Below, piece by piece: positions 10,468 to 29,769 of a stretch of DNA of 29,769 nt. A model generated the notes under the pieces. The model had not been told where the DNA came from. It was given only the letters and a program-made list of their open reading frames with translations, and searched no databases. Every line of letters starts with the position of its first letter. Positions within the stretch are counted from its first letter, which is position 1. The position numbers and the translations under genes were made by a program. The stretch comes from a virus, in the IMG/VR virus record IMGVR_UViG_3300044809_000115, positions 1-29,769 of that record, one strand, 5' to 3'.

Positions 10468-10686
10468 ATGAGCGAGACAGCATCGTCCGGCTGGTATCAC
10501 GACCCGCAGAACTCGGCCATCCTGCGCTACTGGGACGGGGCCGCCTGGACCGAGGCGAGGATGCCGGTTCCCACGCAGGGCAGTGGTGGCGACCGTGTGA
10601 GCGATGGTGTTGGTCTGCTGCTGATCGTCGTGCTCGGCCTGTGCGTGCTCGCGATCATCTGGTACGCAGCCGTCTACCTGGACTAA
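10468..10686 (+). CDS. DUF2510 domain membrane protein
   Basis: A 72-residue protein on the strand opposite to its neighbours. Residues 7-33 match DUF2510 (GWYHDPQNSAILRYWDGAAWT), a short actinobacterial module with conserved Trp and Tyr. Residues about 46-69 form one transmembrane helix (VGLLLIVVLGLCVLAIIWYA). The ATG at 10468 is chosen because the domain begins there; no good ribosome site precedes it. TACCCT at 10456-10461 with ATGACG at 10432-10437 could be a promoter giving a near-leaderless mRNA. It looks like a moron gene inserted between the early and late blocks, possibly expressed in lysogens. Its function is unknown. Confidence 0.82.
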   Translation: MSETASSGWYHDPQNSAILRYWDGAAWTEARMPVPTQGSGGDRVSDGVGLLLIVVLGLCVLAIIWYAAVYLD

Positions 10687-25256: not shown

Positions 25257-25414
25257 TGGCCTGTCCCTGTCATGGGTGAGAACTGGGCGACCACCGAGGC
25301 GTGTAGGGCAGCAGCGATACACGCGAACACGATCAGGACGGCTAGGGCTGCGGCTGCGGTGCCGAGTCCGGGTGCGTAGAGGGTGTGGCGGCGGGGGCTG
25401 CGGTCCGTGATCAT
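25253..25414 (-). CDS. 53-residue single-helix membrane protein
   Basis: The product MITDRSPRRHTLYAPGLGT is followed by a hydrophobic helix, AAAALAVLIVFACIAAALHA (about residues 20-39), and a polar tail. Arg residues before the helix suggest an N-in orientation. The ATG at 25414 overlaps the HTH protein stop. The function is unknown; it sits between the excisionase-like gene and the methyltransferase gene. Confidence 0.66.
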   Translation of the reverse strand: MITDRSPRRHTLYAPGLGTAAAALAVLIVFACIAAALHASVVAQFSPMTGTGQ

Positions 25415-25671
25415 GCGGACCGTCTACGGGCTGCGGAGCGTGGCGTCTGTCCAGGGACCCTCGTAGCCGGCGCGTTGGAGAGGGTCGGTGCGACGGAGTG
25501 TTGGGCGACGATTTGTGCGGCTTGTTCCTCGGTGTAGCGGATTTCGAGGGGGACGCGGCTGATGCGGACGTGGGGCCAGTGGTGGCGTTTGCGGAGTTTT
25601 TCGACGGTGGTGGCGTCGAGGCCGTTGAGGAGTGCGCCGAGGTCGGTGGGGGTGAGCAACGGGGCGGTCAT
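25411..25671 (-). CDS. Excisionase-like HTH DNA-binding protein
   Basis: An 86-residue protein with a MerR/excisionase-like HTH: LLTPTDLGALLNGLDATTVE, KLRKRHHWPHVRISRVPLEI and RYTEEQAAQIVAQ, followed by a basic tail ending RSAARRRSA. It matches small phage Xis or HTH_17-type proteins in length and pattern. It follows the lipoprotein gene by four bases and is coupled to the membrane peptide. It could direct excision with the integrase at 27.8-28.9 kb, an inference from the fold and context. Confidence 0.75.
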   Translation of the reverse strand: MTAPLLTPTDLGALLNGLDATTVEKLRKRHHWPHVRISRVPLEIRYTEEQAAQIVAQHSVAPTLSNAPATRVPGQTPRSAARRRSA

Positions 25672-25675
25672 CGCG

Positions 25676-26260
25676 TCACTTCGTCTTCGCGATGGTCCCT
25701 GGCCCGAGGGGCTGGGCGTCGCCGTACTGAGGAAGCGGCTGGTCACTAATCTGCTGGTTGATACCGAGGCCGACCGAGTACTCGACGTACGCGCCAGTCA
25801 CGGCGTCCTTGCCGTAGAACTCCGAGCAGTTGGAGGACGACGCGTATGTGCCGTCGACCGAGGGGCCGGGGACCAGCAGGGGGACGGTGGCTCCATCAGT
25901 TCCGCCGTCGAAGGTCTCCACGCGGTAGGGCGGAATGATCGACGTGCAATAGGAGACGGGCAGGCCGTCCAGAACGTAGTAACCGAAGACGTTGCTCTGG
26001 GAGTCACGGAGATAGACGTAGGCGACCTTGCCCTTGCTGCCCCAGGTGTCGATCCAGAAGTTCTTGGTCGCGCGGGTGGGCGAGTAGGGCATGGAGTGGA
26101 CAGGCTGCGTCGCGATCAGCTTCGTGTAGGTGTCCTCGCGGGACTGGTCTTCCTGCTTCTGTGCGGCGGGTGGGGCGTGACTGTCGCCACCGCAAGCGGT
26201 GAGGCTGAACGGGAGTGCGACGAGGGCGACACCGAGGGTGAGGGTGCTCAGCTTGCGCAT
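25676..26260 (-). CDS. Phage lipoprotein
   Basis: A 194-residue protein with a lipoprotein signal: KLSTLTLGVALVALPFSL, then the lipobox LTAC (C23). The mature part includes YTKLIATQPVHSMPYSPTR, AYVYLRDSQSNVFGYYVL, DGLPVSYCTSIIPPYRVE and VDGTYASSSNCSEFYGKDA. These stretches recur in lipoproteins from unrelated phages and prophages. Anchored outside the membrane, it is a candidate superinfection-exclusion factor, but no such role has been shown here. Its start overlaps the membrane-protein gene by 13 bases. Confidence 0.85.
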   Translation of the reverse strand: MRKLSTLTLGVALVALPFSLTACGGDSHAPPAAQKQEDQSREDTYTKLIATQPVHSMPYSPTRATKNFWIDTWGSKGKVAYVYLRDSQSNVFGYYVLDGLPVSYCTSIIPPYRVETFDGGTDGATVPLLVPGPSVDGTYASSSNCSEFYGKDAVTGAYVEYSVGLGINQQISDQPLPQYGDAQPLGPGTIAKTK

Positions 26261-26703
26261 GACGTGTGGTTTCCCTTCAAGGAGATTTGGTAGGGCAGAT
26301 CGGATGCTCGGAAGTTGGCAGCCGTGTCGGCCTTGCGCGCGTCGGCGTTGTACTGGTTGATCACTTGGGCGCGGATATTGGTCGTGGCGGCGCTATTCGC
26401 CACGTACTGCGCGTTCGTCTTGTCGGTGCGCCACATGGAGAGCGCCGACGCGCGTCGGGTTTCGGCGGACTGAATGGCCGCGCAGGTGTCGTAGAAGTGG
26501 TCGTACTGAGCGATCCGGTAGTTCGGGTCGGCGTGGATTCGCTGGTACTGCTTCGCTTGCCCGATGGGGTCAGCGATCAGCGTCTTCACTAGGAAGACGC
26601 CCCCACCCAGGAGGCTGAAGAAGATGACGGCGACGACGATCCAGCCCCCGATGCGGAGGCCCCCGCGGCGGCTTGTGCGGTCAATCTCTTGCCAGTCGCT
26701 CAT
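26248..26703 (-). CDS. Membrane protein with extracytoplasmic domain
   Basis: A 151-residue protein: cytoplasmic MSDWQEIDRTSRRGGLRIGG, one transmembrane helix (WIVVAVIFFSLLGGGVFLV, about residues 21-39), then a charged helical domain with YQRIHADPNYRIAQYDHFYD and IQSAETRRASALSMWRTDK. It is coupled to the lipoprotein and to the Cro-like gene, overlapping both. Similar membrane genes occur beside lipoproteins in phage immunity regions. Function is unknown; superinfection exclusion is the leading idea. Confidence 0.78.
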   Translation of the reverse strand: MSDWQEIDRTSRRGGLRIGGWIVVAVIFFSLLGGGVFLVKTLIADPIGQAKQYQRIHADPNYRIAQYDHFYDTCAAIQSAETRRASALSMWRTDKTNAQYVANSAATTNIRAQVINQYNADARKADTAANFRASDLPYQISLKGNHTSCAS

Positions 26704-26933
26704 GCGGCGGCCCGCTCAGCCTCGGCCGCGATGCGGCTCGCTGTGGTGCCCAGAACAGAGGCGATCAACCCCAACTCGTTGATCGTGAACGGGGAGTGCC
26801 CACCGAGACGGCGGGTCAGAGTGGTGCGCGGGATGGTGGTGCTCTCGGCGAGCGACTTCACCGAGATGTCTTGCTGGGCCATCGTTCGTGTGACGATGGC
26901 TGCGACCGTTTGGGTCGCTGACGGGGTGACCAT
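26700..26933 (-). CDS. Cro-like HTH regulator
   Basis: A 77-residue protein with an XRE-type HTH: VAAIVTRTMAQQDISVKSLA, ESTTIPRTTLTRRLGGHSPF and TINELGLIASVLGTTASRI. It is the first gene of the leftward operon, read from a promoter with a palindromic operator. The start at 26933 is the only one compatible with that promoter; the mRNA would be leaderless or nearly so. It is probably Cro, or the repressor if the plus-strand gene is Cro-like; gene position favours Cro. Confidence 0.82.
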   Translation of the reverse strand: MVTPSATQTVAAIVTRTMAQQDISVKSLAESTTIPRTTLTRRLGGHSPFTINELGLIASVLGTTASRIAAEAERAAA

Positions 26934-26939
26934 GTGGTC

Positions 26940-26969
26940 ATCGTAAGTGACCCGCGGGTCACCCTGCAA
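26940..26969 (-). promoter_or_regulatory. Early leftward promoter
   Basis: TTGCAG (26969-26964) and TACGAT (26945-26940) are separated by 18 bases on the minus strand. TACGAT ends six bases before the ATG of the Cro-like gene, so the transcript would begin at or within a base or two of the start codon. The spacer contains the palindrome. Confidence 0.72.
26947..26962. promoter_or_regulatory. Perfect 16 bp palindromic operator
   Basis: The sequence GTGACCCGCGGGTCAC is a perfect palindrome that fills the spacer between -35 and -10 of the early leftward promoter. A regulator bound here would block RNA polymerase. A related GTGACC half-site lies at 27009-27014, over the rightward promoter. Confidence 0.82.
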
Positions 26970-27008
26970 CCGAAACGCGGAAGTTTCTGAGCAAATTCTG
27001 TATCTGTG

Positions 27009-27043
27009 GTGACCGATTGGGTACTTTAGTGGCATGAGTACCC
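27009..27043 (+). promoter_or_regulatory. Rightward promoter and flanking inverted repeats
   Basis: TACTTT at 27022-27027 stands six bases before the ATG at 27034, so a leaderless mRNA is likely; no strong -35 is evident. GTGACC at 27009-27014 repeats the operator half-site. GGGTACT (27019-27025) and AGTACCC (27037-27043) form a perfect 7 bp inverted repeat spanning the -10 and the start codon, a second possible operator or a hairpin that hides the start. Confidence 0.6.
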
Positions 27044-27375
27044 GAAAGAAGCGAGGCGGCCTCAACGCCGCCGTGGCCGCTGTACTAGAAGGCGAGCGAG
27101 CAGCAGCGGACCTGAACTACCCCACCCTCGGGCAACGATGCGGGCTCTCGGCCCGCACCCTGATGCGCAAACTGTCGACCCATGAGGCCGACCTCGACAT
27201 CAACGAGGTGGCGGCGATTGGCGAGGTCTTTCACCTGGCCCCGTCAGAGGTCGTCGCCAGGGGTGAGGAGTATCAGCTCCGCAACTCACCCGAGGACGTC
27301 GGCCGCGAGATCGCGCGCCTCATTAACGACCGCCGAGATGCAGAGGCTCGACGGACCAGGGGCGACGCGGGCTGA
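27034..27375 (+). CDS. HTH regulator, probable immunity repressor
   Basis: A 113-residue plus-strand protein, STRKKRGGLNAAVAAVLEGE, then AAADLNYPTLGQRCGLSART, LMRKLSTHEADLDINEVAAI and GEVFHLAPSEVVARGEEY: an XRE-type HTH in residues about 25-75 and a basic helical tail. It diverges from the Cro-like gene over a shared operator region. Its likely leaderless start and the repeat over it suggest autoregulation. By position it is the candidate lysogeny repressor; no experiments are available. Confidence 0.8.
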   Translation: MSTRKKRGGLNAAVAAVLEGERAAADLNYPTLGQRCGLSARTLMRKLSTHEADLDINEVAAIGEVFHLAPSEVVARGEEYQLRNSPEDVGREIARLINDRRDAEARRTRGDAG

Positions 27376-27476: not shown

Positions 27477-27755
27477 ATGACGCGACTCCACCGGCAACTT
27501 CTCGGGGTATCCCTTTGGGTCTCCGCCGTACTGATGATGACCTCAGCGACCGTCGACAGTGACCTCCAACTGGCCGGGTGGGCGATCCTCGTTGCGCTCG
27601 GTGCGTGCGTGTTCACGGGTTGGCTCTTACTTGAGGGCTGCCGGAACCAGATGCTTCACGCGATCGCGGAGGAGGAGGACAAGATCGACAGGCTGGTTGG
27701 GACGATCCTTGGCGAGCTGGGGAAGGGTGAGCGGCCGACGATCGTGCGGGACTAG
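27477..27755 (+). CDS. Two-helix membrane protein, convergent with integrase
   Basis: A 92-residue protein with two predicted transmembrane helices (QLLGVSLWVSAVLMMTSA, about residues 7-24, and AGWAILVALGACVFTGWLLL, about 33-52), then a cytoplasmic-type charged tail, NQMLHAIAEEEDKIDRLVGT. Its stop overlaps the integrase stop in a CTAG. It lies downstream of the repressor on the same strand and might be expressed in lysogens, perhaps as an exclusion or immunity protein. No family is recognised. Confidence 0.75.
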   Translation: MTRLHRQLLGVSLWVSAVLMMTSATVDSDLQLAGWAILVALGACVFTGWLLLEGCRNQMLHAIAEEEDKIDRLVGTILGELGKGERPTIVRD

Positions 27756-28942
27756 TCGAGCTCGAGGACTTGGGCGATGACTTCGCCCTGCACGATCTCA
27801 GCGACGCCGGGCACGTTCCGTTCGCCCGACATGATCGCTGCGGCCCGTGTCACGGACTCCGAAGACATGTCGCCGATCATGCCGCCGTAGACGTCGACGG
27901 TGGTGGAGTAGTGCTCGTGGCCGATGCGTCTCTGGACTTCGTGTATGGGTGACCCGGAGGCGAGGGCGACGGCGACGTGCATGTGGCGGAGCCAGTGTGG
28001 GGTGGGGTGTCGGTCGCCGAGCTGGGCGTCGGCGATGATTTTGGGCCAGGTTTCGCGGAGGAACGTGTTTTGTGACCATGCTCGGCCGCGGGTGTTGGTG
28101 AATACGAGGTCGCCGGGTCGTTTGGTGGCGACCCTGCGGCGGACCATTGCTGCGGAGGCCGGCCACATGACGATGCGACGGAATGCGGCGTCGGACTTGG
28201 CGGAGTCTTCGGCGACGACTTGCCGGTAGTGGGCGTTGAGGCGCATGACTCTGGTGACGTTGACCCACACGTTGACGCCGTCGTCTTCTACGTCGCGGAC
28301 ATCGAGTGCGGTGGCTTCGGAGAATCGCCATCCGGTTTCGGCGAGGAACAGGATGAGGTCGGCTGCGTCGGGGTTCCGTTTGACGGCCGCCTCGAGGATG
28401 GCGCGGCATTCGGCGACGGTGGTTCCCTTGGGTGGCTTCTTGACACGTTTGGGTAGGTCGGTTTCGAGGCAGGGGTTGTGTGTGACGAGTCCGCGTGATT
28501 TCGCTTTGCCGTATTGGTACATGGCGTGGAGGAGCATGTGGCGGTCGGCTACGGACTTGGGTGAGAGTCGGGTTGCCATGTGGTCGACCCAGCGTTGGAC
28601 GTCGCCCTCATCTACGGTTTCTGCGGCTTTGTGTCCTAGCCAGGGTTTGATCCAGTTGGCGATGTCGCGGCGGTAGTCGGTCATGGTGCGTTCGGTGACG
28701 TCGCGTGTTTTCCAGTCGAGGAACTGTGTAGCGAGCTGGTCGACGGTGAGCCTGTCGTCGGGTGCGCCGTCGTTGAGGGCTTTGAATGCGCGGTCGACGC
28801 CGAGGGTGTCGATGAGGGTTTTGAGGTCGTGGGCGTCTTTGGCGCTGGCGACGGTGTGCGAGGTCTGTTTCTTGCCGTGTCGGTAGAGGACGGCCCAGGT
28901 GGTTTCGCCGTTGCGTGCGGTTCGGGTACGGATGGAAGCCAC
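27752..28942 (-). CDS. int: Tyrosine integrase
   Basis: A 396-residue tyrosine recombinase from a GTG at 28942. An N-terminal AP2-like region (ASIRTRTARNGETTWAVLYR) precedes a SAM-like core-binding domain (about 65-165), then the catalytic domain with R206 in ETGWRFSEA, H316 and R319 in HWLRH, H342 in IGHEHY and nucleophile Y352 in TVDVYGG. It inserts and, with an excisionase, excises the genome. The start overlaps the upstream stop as TAGTG. The convergent overlap with the membrane gene leaves no room for an attachment site downstream, so attP is probably outside or inside a coding end. Confidence 0.96.
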   Translation of the reverse strand: MASIRTRTARNGETTWAVLYRHGKKQTSHTVASAKDAHDLKTLIDTLGVDRAFKALNDGAPDDRLTVDQLATQFLDWKTRDVTERTMTDYRRDIANWIKPWLGHKAAETVDEGDVQRWVDHMATRLSPKSVADRHMLLHAMYQYGKAKSRGLVTHNPCLETDLPKRVKKPPKGTTVAECRAILEAAVKRNPDAADLILFLAETGWRFSEATALDVRDVEDDGVNVWVNVTRVMRLNAHYRQVVAEDSAKSDAAFRRIVMWPASAAMVRRRVATKRPGDLVFTNTRGRAWSQNTFLRETWPKIIADAQLGDRHPTPHWLRHMHVAVALASGSPIHEVQRRIGHEHYSTTVDVYGGMIGDMSSESVTRAAAIMSGERNVPGVAEIVQGEVIAQVLELD

Positions 28943-29703
28943 TAGGCGCAGTTCCGCCCGTCCCACGAAACAGCGAGGTCGGAGAGCCGCAGTAGACCGA
29001 TGTTCTTCGCTTGTCCGTCGCAGCCGAGAGACAGGTAGCGCGTCGGCTCCTGGGGTCCAGTGTCGTCGGGTGCGTGGTAGTGCCCGTGCGCGAACAGCTT
29101 GGGGCGCACGCCAGCCACCGCAGCGTTCATCAGCACGCGACCCTCTCGGGCGTAGTTCAACCCCTTCTCTGACCATGGGCTCTGGTCGACGGGGGTGGCG
29201 ATAATGCGATCGACCGCCGCAGTCCCGCCGTCAGGCGCGTCGTGCGCAAGCATGACGTCGGCGTAGCCAGCCTCCGCAACCGCACACGCCTCCGAGTAGG
29301 TGATCCTCTCAGCGTCCCACCACGAGGCACCCGGCGTTCGCATCTCGAAGTCGATCGAGGGCGCTCCGCCGAGGGAGACGAATGTCTGGCCCCCATGCTC
29401 CCAGCGGTGCCCGCGGGGGATCAGCGCGATGTGCGACCGGACCCACTGGAGGCCGTCCGCACCGACCGGCGCCGCATTGATCTGGTCGTAGTCCTCATGG
29501 TTACCGGGCGTGACCCAGATCGGCGCGTCGTAGTGCTTGGCGACCGTGTTGACGTGATCGAGGTAGTGGGCTCCCTTCGAGCCCGGCCAGATGCCGAAGT
29601 CGCCCAGGTGGTAGATCCGTTCGACCTTGAATGAGGCGAGGCCCCGGATCGCCTCCCGGGCCCACGCGAGGTTGCCATGCCAGTCTCCAGCGAGCCCCGC
29701 CAT
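28942..29703 (-). CDS. Metallophosphoesterase
   Basis: A calcineurin-like phosphoesterase of 253 residues. Motifs in order are GDWHGN, HLGDFGIW, GNHEDYDQ, MLAHDAP and HGHYHAP, the full metal-binding set of the family. The ATG at 29703 is chosen because GGCGGAGGACCC precedes it; the open frame continues to the window edge with a Gly-rich stretch, so a longer N-terminus is possible. The substrate is unknown: nucleotides, phosphodiesters or proteins. Coupling to int suggests the two are transcribed together. Confidence 0.9.
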   Translation of the reverse strand: MAGLAGDWHGNLAWAREAIRGLASFKVERIYHLGDFGIWPGSKGAHYLDHVNTVAKHYDAPIWVTPGNHEDYDQINAAPVGADGLQWVRSHIALIPRGHRWEHGGQTFVSLGGAPSIDFEMRTPGASWWDAERITYSEACAVAEAGYADVMLAHDAPDGGTAAVDRIIATPVDQSPWSEKGLNYAREGRVLMNAAVAGVRPKLFAHGHYHAPDDTGPQEPTRYLSLGCDGQAKNIGLLRLSDLAVSWDGRNCA

Positions 29704-29769
29704 GGGTCCTCCGCCCATCTCCACGAGTCCCCCACCGCCGCCTGCGGCACCCTCAGAAACGTTCGCCAT

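Follow-up and report, generated by a model that had tools for sequence, protein, structure and literature searches.

The window analysed here is a virus record from IMG/VR, 29,769 bases long with a GC content of 65%; to judge by its genes it is most likely a truncated temperate actinophage. The nearest named records to its terminase are Streptomyces, Gordonia and Arthrobacter phages, and the same protein is 83% identical to the terminase of a 42-kb uncultured contig. From right to left along the minus strand run HTH-A, two small putative membrane or lipoprotein genes, an excisionase-like protein and methyltransferases, followed by a replication initiation protein, an HNH endonuclease, terminase, portal, protease, scaffold, capsid, adaptor and the major tail protein. 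The excisionase-like protein, an HTH protein in the leftward operon (25411-25746, minus strand), is a weak match to phrog_1840 (E = 0.016). Divergent from HTH-A lies a second HTH gene, HTH-B, and convergent with HTH-B is a tyrosine integrase (27752-28942, minus strand; phrog_1, E = 1.2e-50; Pfam Phage_integrase), which likely starts at a GTG overlapping the stop codon of a phosphoesterase gene.

HTH-A (26703-26933, minus strand, with its stop codon at 26700-26702) encodes a Cro-like protein of 77 amino acids. It matches phrog_4583, annotated 'transcriptional repressor', at E = 6.8e-17 and Pfam HTH_26 above the cut-off. Its AlphaFold2 model has five helices and a pLDDT of 89; the nearest solved folds found by Foldseek are ClgR and the C-proteins, with a best E of 4.6e-3 that speaks to fold class only. 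Because the stop codon overlaps the start of the next gene (ATGA, 26700-26703), HTH-A heads an operon, which we read as probably the early lytic operon of the leftward strand. Its relatives include the genes in the cro position of phages Guacamole and JustASigh. The protein ends in ...AERAAA (26703-26712, minus strand) and several relatives have -A or -SA as their last residues; this may be a C-terminal degradation signal of the kind described for the BPs repressor and integrase.

HTH-B (27034-27375, plus strand; 113 amino acids) is the candidate immunity repressor. Its match to phrog_4583 is weak (E = 0.0027), yet it is a paralogue of HTH-A (29% identity, E = 1e-6), and it adjoins the integrase, as do the genes annotated as immunity repressors in RavenCo17, Moosehead and Guacamole. 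No LexA-type C-terminal domain was found in it, a phmmer search of both proteins against the PDB returned nothing useful, and a model of HTH-B built without an alignment was poor (pLDDT 60) and was left unused. Within the 5' part of the gene sits a terminator-like hairpin (27055-27072, minus strand) that could halt leftward integrase transcription ahead of the switch and the lytic operon. The ORF 3' of HTH-B (27477-27755, plus strand) encodes a membrane-like protein of 92 amino acids with a weak match to DUF4229 (E = 0.024); it is possibly expressed in the prophage and is a candidate superinfection exclusion gene. The phosphoesterase gene overlapping the integrase start (28942-29769, minus strand) is of the metallophosphoesterase type, and Arthrobacter phage Seahorse has a phosphoesterase-integrase neighbourhood too.

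Putative leaderless promoters and operator copies

The first-pass annotation of this DNA had described a good leftward promoter with a perfect 16-bp palindrome filling the spacer between its -35 and -10. The palindrome is there. It is GTGACCCGCGGGTCAC at 26947-26962, which we call O2, and it is centred 21.5 bp before the HTH-A start. The promoter, P_cro, reads TTGCAG-N18-TACGAT on the minus strand, with the -35 at 26964-26969, the -10 at 26940-26945, 6 nt before the ATG, and an 18-nt spacer (26946-26963) that O2 fills. By E. coli standards 'good' was too generous: the -35 shares three of six positions with TTGACA, and a sigma-70 search gave no match. What speaks for the promoter is that TTGC or TTGA recurs at this distance from the start in relatives. 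In the other direction, P_rep has the -10 proposed for it, TACTTT (27022-27027, plus strand), six bases before the HTH-B ATG, but the annotation was silent on the missing -35. None is recognisable, so P_rep may be weak or may depend on activation.

The arrangement TANNNT-N6-ATG is exact at both HTH-A and HTH-B, and a Shine-Dalgarno-like motif is absent from both starts. Among 1,882 ATG or GTG triplets on the two strands, TANNNT stands at N5-N8 in only three ORFs of at least 50 amino acids, the third (10468-10686, plus strand) also with TANNNT-N6-ATG. In Mycobacterium tuberculosis, promoters use TANNNT and leaderless transcripts account for 26% of the genes with a primary start site (PMC3898074), so a leaderless reading is normal for an actinobacterial host. 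The proposal that both switch mRNAs are leaderless is supported, at the level of sequence, by this signature and by its enrichment in the homologues described below.

O2 is the longest perfect palindrome in the window. By chance, a Markov sequence as long as the window would yield about 0.9 palindromes of at least 16 bp, and we therefore rejected its length as evidence. The claim rests instead on position: the 18-nt spacer that it fills, and two further copies nearby. O1, GTGACCATGTGGTCAT (26926-26941), has one mismatch of 12; its centre falls on the start codon of HTH-A, 21 bp, or two helical turns, from O2. O3, GTGACCGATTGGGTAC (27009-27024), is degenerate, with two mismatches, and overlaps the -10 of P_rep. 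All three share the consensus GTGACC-N4-GGTCAC, with a distance of 10 bp between the half-sites of each, as would suit a dimeric HTH protein. When the region 26901-27060 was shuffled, a best match with at most one mismatch arose in 0.04% of cases, and such a match plus a second with at most two in 0 of 20,000; in the rest of the window there is one other match with at most two mismatches. The first-pass annotation had recorded one operator and a GTGACC half-site. The half-site proves to be part of O3, and O1 had been overlooked. At the sequence level, the predicted operator copies overlap both promoters. Adjacent copies lie 21 and 62 bp apart and are not contiguous. We considered a stoperator system of the cluster A type, with many asymmetric sites across the genome, and rejected it: the motif is confined to the switch, with one weak match elsewhere in the 29.8-kb fragment.

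Geometry in homologous Rep/Cro pairs

Relatives of this switch are distant. Close relatives of HTH-A, HTH-B, the integrase and the phrog_11517 protein were absent from the viral contigs searched. A tblastn search of phages with HTH-A and HTH-B gave no match at E <= 0.01; at E <= 10 the HTH-A matches were weak but useful. In 32 records with a related terminase (55-83% identity), HTH-B found no match and HTH-A a single one, weak and interrupted by a stop. A scan of genome contigs yielded a single locus, a Mycolicibacterium litorale prophage. No close relative of the exact switch was found in these searches, and the comparison was one of geometry, in loci that include the homologous annotated pairs gp40/gp41 of Guacamole, gp46/gp47 of JustASigh and gp47/gp48 of Sparky.

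Our test asked for a palindrome with an arm of at least 5, a loop of at most 5 and a centre 19-24 bp ahead of the cro start. The discovery set comprised 13 loci, most of them picked up through weak homology, and 7 of the 13 cro starts had one, with 0.44 expected from shuffles and 1 of 65 control windows positive. These numbers carry choices of our own: the range from -24 to -19 was picked once the results had been seen, some starts had been shifted to the leaderless candidate, the Doucette start was used and not the B3 start, and one of the seven palindromes, that of Arthrobacter phage Nandita, precedes a gene whose relatives are annotated repressors. Because range and starts had been chosen post hoc, we fixed the test and then ran it on ten held-out loci, effectively about nine since Charlie and MichelleMyBell are near duplicates. 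The palindrome was present at four of the ten cro starts (0.29 expected) and at none of the ten rep starts (0.28 expected). The leaderless signature was found at five of ten rep starts (0.67 expected) and at three of ten cro starts, where 1.5 were expected and one locus reached it in every shuffle. TTGC or TTGA stood at -39 to -34 before 12 of 18 cro starts and 8 of 18 rep starts, against about one expected in each case and with start choices as in the palindrome test; this recurrence supports the position of the promoter relative to the start codon. The spacer geometry was absent, by the test used, from the cro genes of Guacamole and Charlie and from JustASigh.

It is here that coincidence can be judged. 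Were O2 a chance palindrome in GC-rich DNA, with no such promoters or operators at the locus and both genes expressed from led transcripts, one would point to the expected count of such palindromes and to the failure to detect an E. coli-type promoter. That account has to reckon with three clustered operator copies, with the exact TANNNT-N6-ATG at both genes where no Shine-Dalgarno motif is seen, and with a geometry that recurs in held-out homologues. We find it scarcely credible.

A tandem-site search, using the symmetric consensus of each locus's own spacer palindrome over its switch region, found in 5 of 11 loci (the window, the related viral contigs L112 and L113, Sparky and Doucette) a second copy with its centre exactly 0.5 bp ahead of the cro start. 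The distance from start-codon copy to spacer copy is 19-21 bp in these five, of which L112 and L113, at 79% identity, count once. Degenerate copies also occur 17.5 to 21.5 bp before the rep start in the window, Hestia, GD43A-3, Nandita and Sparky, mostly not above the 95th percentile of shuffles. The operator sequences themselves are unrelated between phages, and an alignment of six members proved too diverse for a pattern scan. It is the geometry that recurs. We therefore offer, tentatively and with somewhat less than even confidence, a fixed plan for actinophage Rep/Cro switches: a site in the spacer of a leaderless cro promoter, a site on the start codon 19-21 bp away and a degenerate copy at the rep promoter, the sequence turning over while the geometry stays. 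This is the part worth following. If the plan is general, operators and immunity specificity could be predicted from raw sequence. If position is kept while sequence drifts, contigs could serve to predict the immunity groups of uncultured temperate actinophages, and the co-evolution of operator and repressor would be open to study with defined sites.

The switches of L112 and L113 each have different palindromes on their two sides: the rep promoter carries TGTCA-N4-TGACA, the leaderless cro promoter two copies of AGTTCA-N2-TGAACT spaced 19 bp apart. Since the two palindromes are unrelated, one code shared by rep and cro is not universal. This bears on a separate perfect 7-bp repeat that the first-pass annotation had proposed as a distinct operator in the window, GGGTACT-N11-AGTACCC (27019-27043; arms 27019-27025 and 27037-27043). 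The repeat exists and spans the -10 and start codon of HTH-B, and HTH-A might bind O1, O2 and O3 while HTH-B binds the repeat, or the reverse, much as the different rep and cro palindromes of L112 and L113 would lead one to imagine. It was nevertheless the weakest of the earlier claims. The repeat is only marginally above chance, arising in 7% of whole-region shuffles and in 0.8% of those confined to 60 bp at the HTH-B start, and its half-sites are 18 bp apart centre to centre, off the helical repeat, where those of O1 to O3 are 10 bp apart. Two codes in this switch seem to us unlikely, if still worth some thought. Of the 'different, partly shared operators' once proposed, the shared part stands, as three copies of one consensus; the repeat is a possible but weak second operator.

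A different kind of variation appears in L095 (G011:C1:1-9000). The contig G011 has an integrase 51% identical to that of the window, but its repressor is another, with a metalloprotease-like gene, and its switch has other repeats (TGAGCAAG). Because the integrase is shared and the repressor is not, the comparison suggests modular exchange of the immunity cassette between integration genes. In G011 the protein after cro has a C-terminal region resembling, by eye, that of the window's excisionase-like protein.

A probable Rep/Cro-type switch and its known counterparts

Gene order, the paralogy of the two proteins, both TANNNT-N6-ATG signatures, three operator copies and a geometry that recurs in homologues can all be read directly in the DNA. 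Together with gene identity and the homologous annotated pairs, they uphold the original reading of a divergent lysis-lysogeny switch, and we think it very probable that the locus is the immunity region of a temperate phage of actinobacteria, with a Rep/Cro-type switch in which two paralogous HTH proteins are expressed from divergent leaderless promoters and HTH-B is the repressor. Which protein binds each site, the order of filling, cooperativity and repression itself we infer. As the lysogenic repressor, HTH-B would bind as dimers to O2, in the P_cro spacer, and to O1, over the +1 and start codon, two turns apart and probably cooperatively, and so would block RNA polymerase from the early lytic operon. 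With rising concentration HTH-B would also fill the weaker O3 and limit its own synthesis. During lytic growth HTH-A, with the same or an overlapping code, would fill O3, shutting off P_rep, and then O2 and O1, later damping its own promoter. As neither mRNA would have a leader, an occupied operator would directly cover the +1 and the start codon.

The roles might instead be reversed, with HTH-A as the lysogenic repressor, autoregulating through O1 and O2, and HTH-B as its antagonist. The two strongest sites do lie at HTH-A's own promoter, as one would expect of an autoregulated repressor; the proteins are paralogous; and the spacer palindrome of Nandita precedes a gene with relatives annotated as immunity repressors. 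Yet the closest relatives of HTH-A occupy the cro position, and HTH-A leads a long lytic operon, ATGA-coupled to the next gene, when the gene at the head of such an operon is not expected to be active in a silent prophage. It is HTH-B that adjoins the integrase, like annotated repressors. We consider the reversal improbable, and keep HTH-B as the likely repressor.

Switches of this kind are already known, and this one is a typical actinophage case; what it adds is one more example, with unusually readable operators. In BPs, one operator lies between the -10 and -35 of P_R and another overlaps the P_rep start (PMC4557955). The window resembles it in having a divergent small HTH repressor and Cro-like gene (gp33/gp34 in BPs), a perfect palindrome in the cro-side promoter spacer and a second, degenerate operator copy at the P_rep start. 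The BPs operator differs in its CGACATATGTCG half-sites, tetrameric repressor, variable spacing and sites elsewhere in the genome, whereas the window operators are found only at the switch. BPs also has attP inside rep, with int co-transcribed with rep. Here int is opposite in strand to HTH-B rather than adjoining and co-directional, another gene, the 92-aa ORF, intervenes, and no tRNA, tRNA-like core or Rfam match marking attP was found in the window; the relatives GD43A-3 and GD16-1 have attP in rep according to their own annotation.

In the N15-type phage PY54, RACE places the start of both the cI and the cro mRNA at the AUG, and the lambda cI mRNA is cited there as leaderless too (PMC4488713). 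PY54 is thus like the window, where the signature points the same way for both switch genes, but it has an enterobacterial host, another repressor family and a Cro that binds a single operator. Lambda's CI/Cro O_R offers the analogy for how the switch would work, with divergent genes and three graded operator copies common to two promoters. We claim no homology to it: HTH-B has 113 amino acids and no LexA-type domain was found in it, and the window operators are not contiguous. The controller proteins C.Esp1396I and C.BclI are, with ClgR, closest in fold to the HTH-A model, at 16% sequence identity, and no restriction endonuclease is seen beside HTH-A. C proteins occupy tandem operators as pairs of dimers.

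Likeness to BPs and lambda may then be one of mechanism, while the relationship to the actinophage Rep/Cro family is one of homology. Guacamole, JustASigh and Sparky have homologues of HTH-A (39-45% identity for the first two) in a divergent layout. The palindromes of Sparky have their centres at cro -21.5, cro -0.5 and rep -0.5. In all three the operator sequences are unrelated to the window's.

Far from the switch, the gene at 10468-10686 (plus strand) encodes a protein of 72 amino acids that matches DUF2510 (Pfam, E = 1.3e-11) and has a hydrophobic stretch at its C-terminal end; the lytic genes are on the other strand. The gene seems to be a prophage 'moron', expressed separately from a leaderless promoter of its own.
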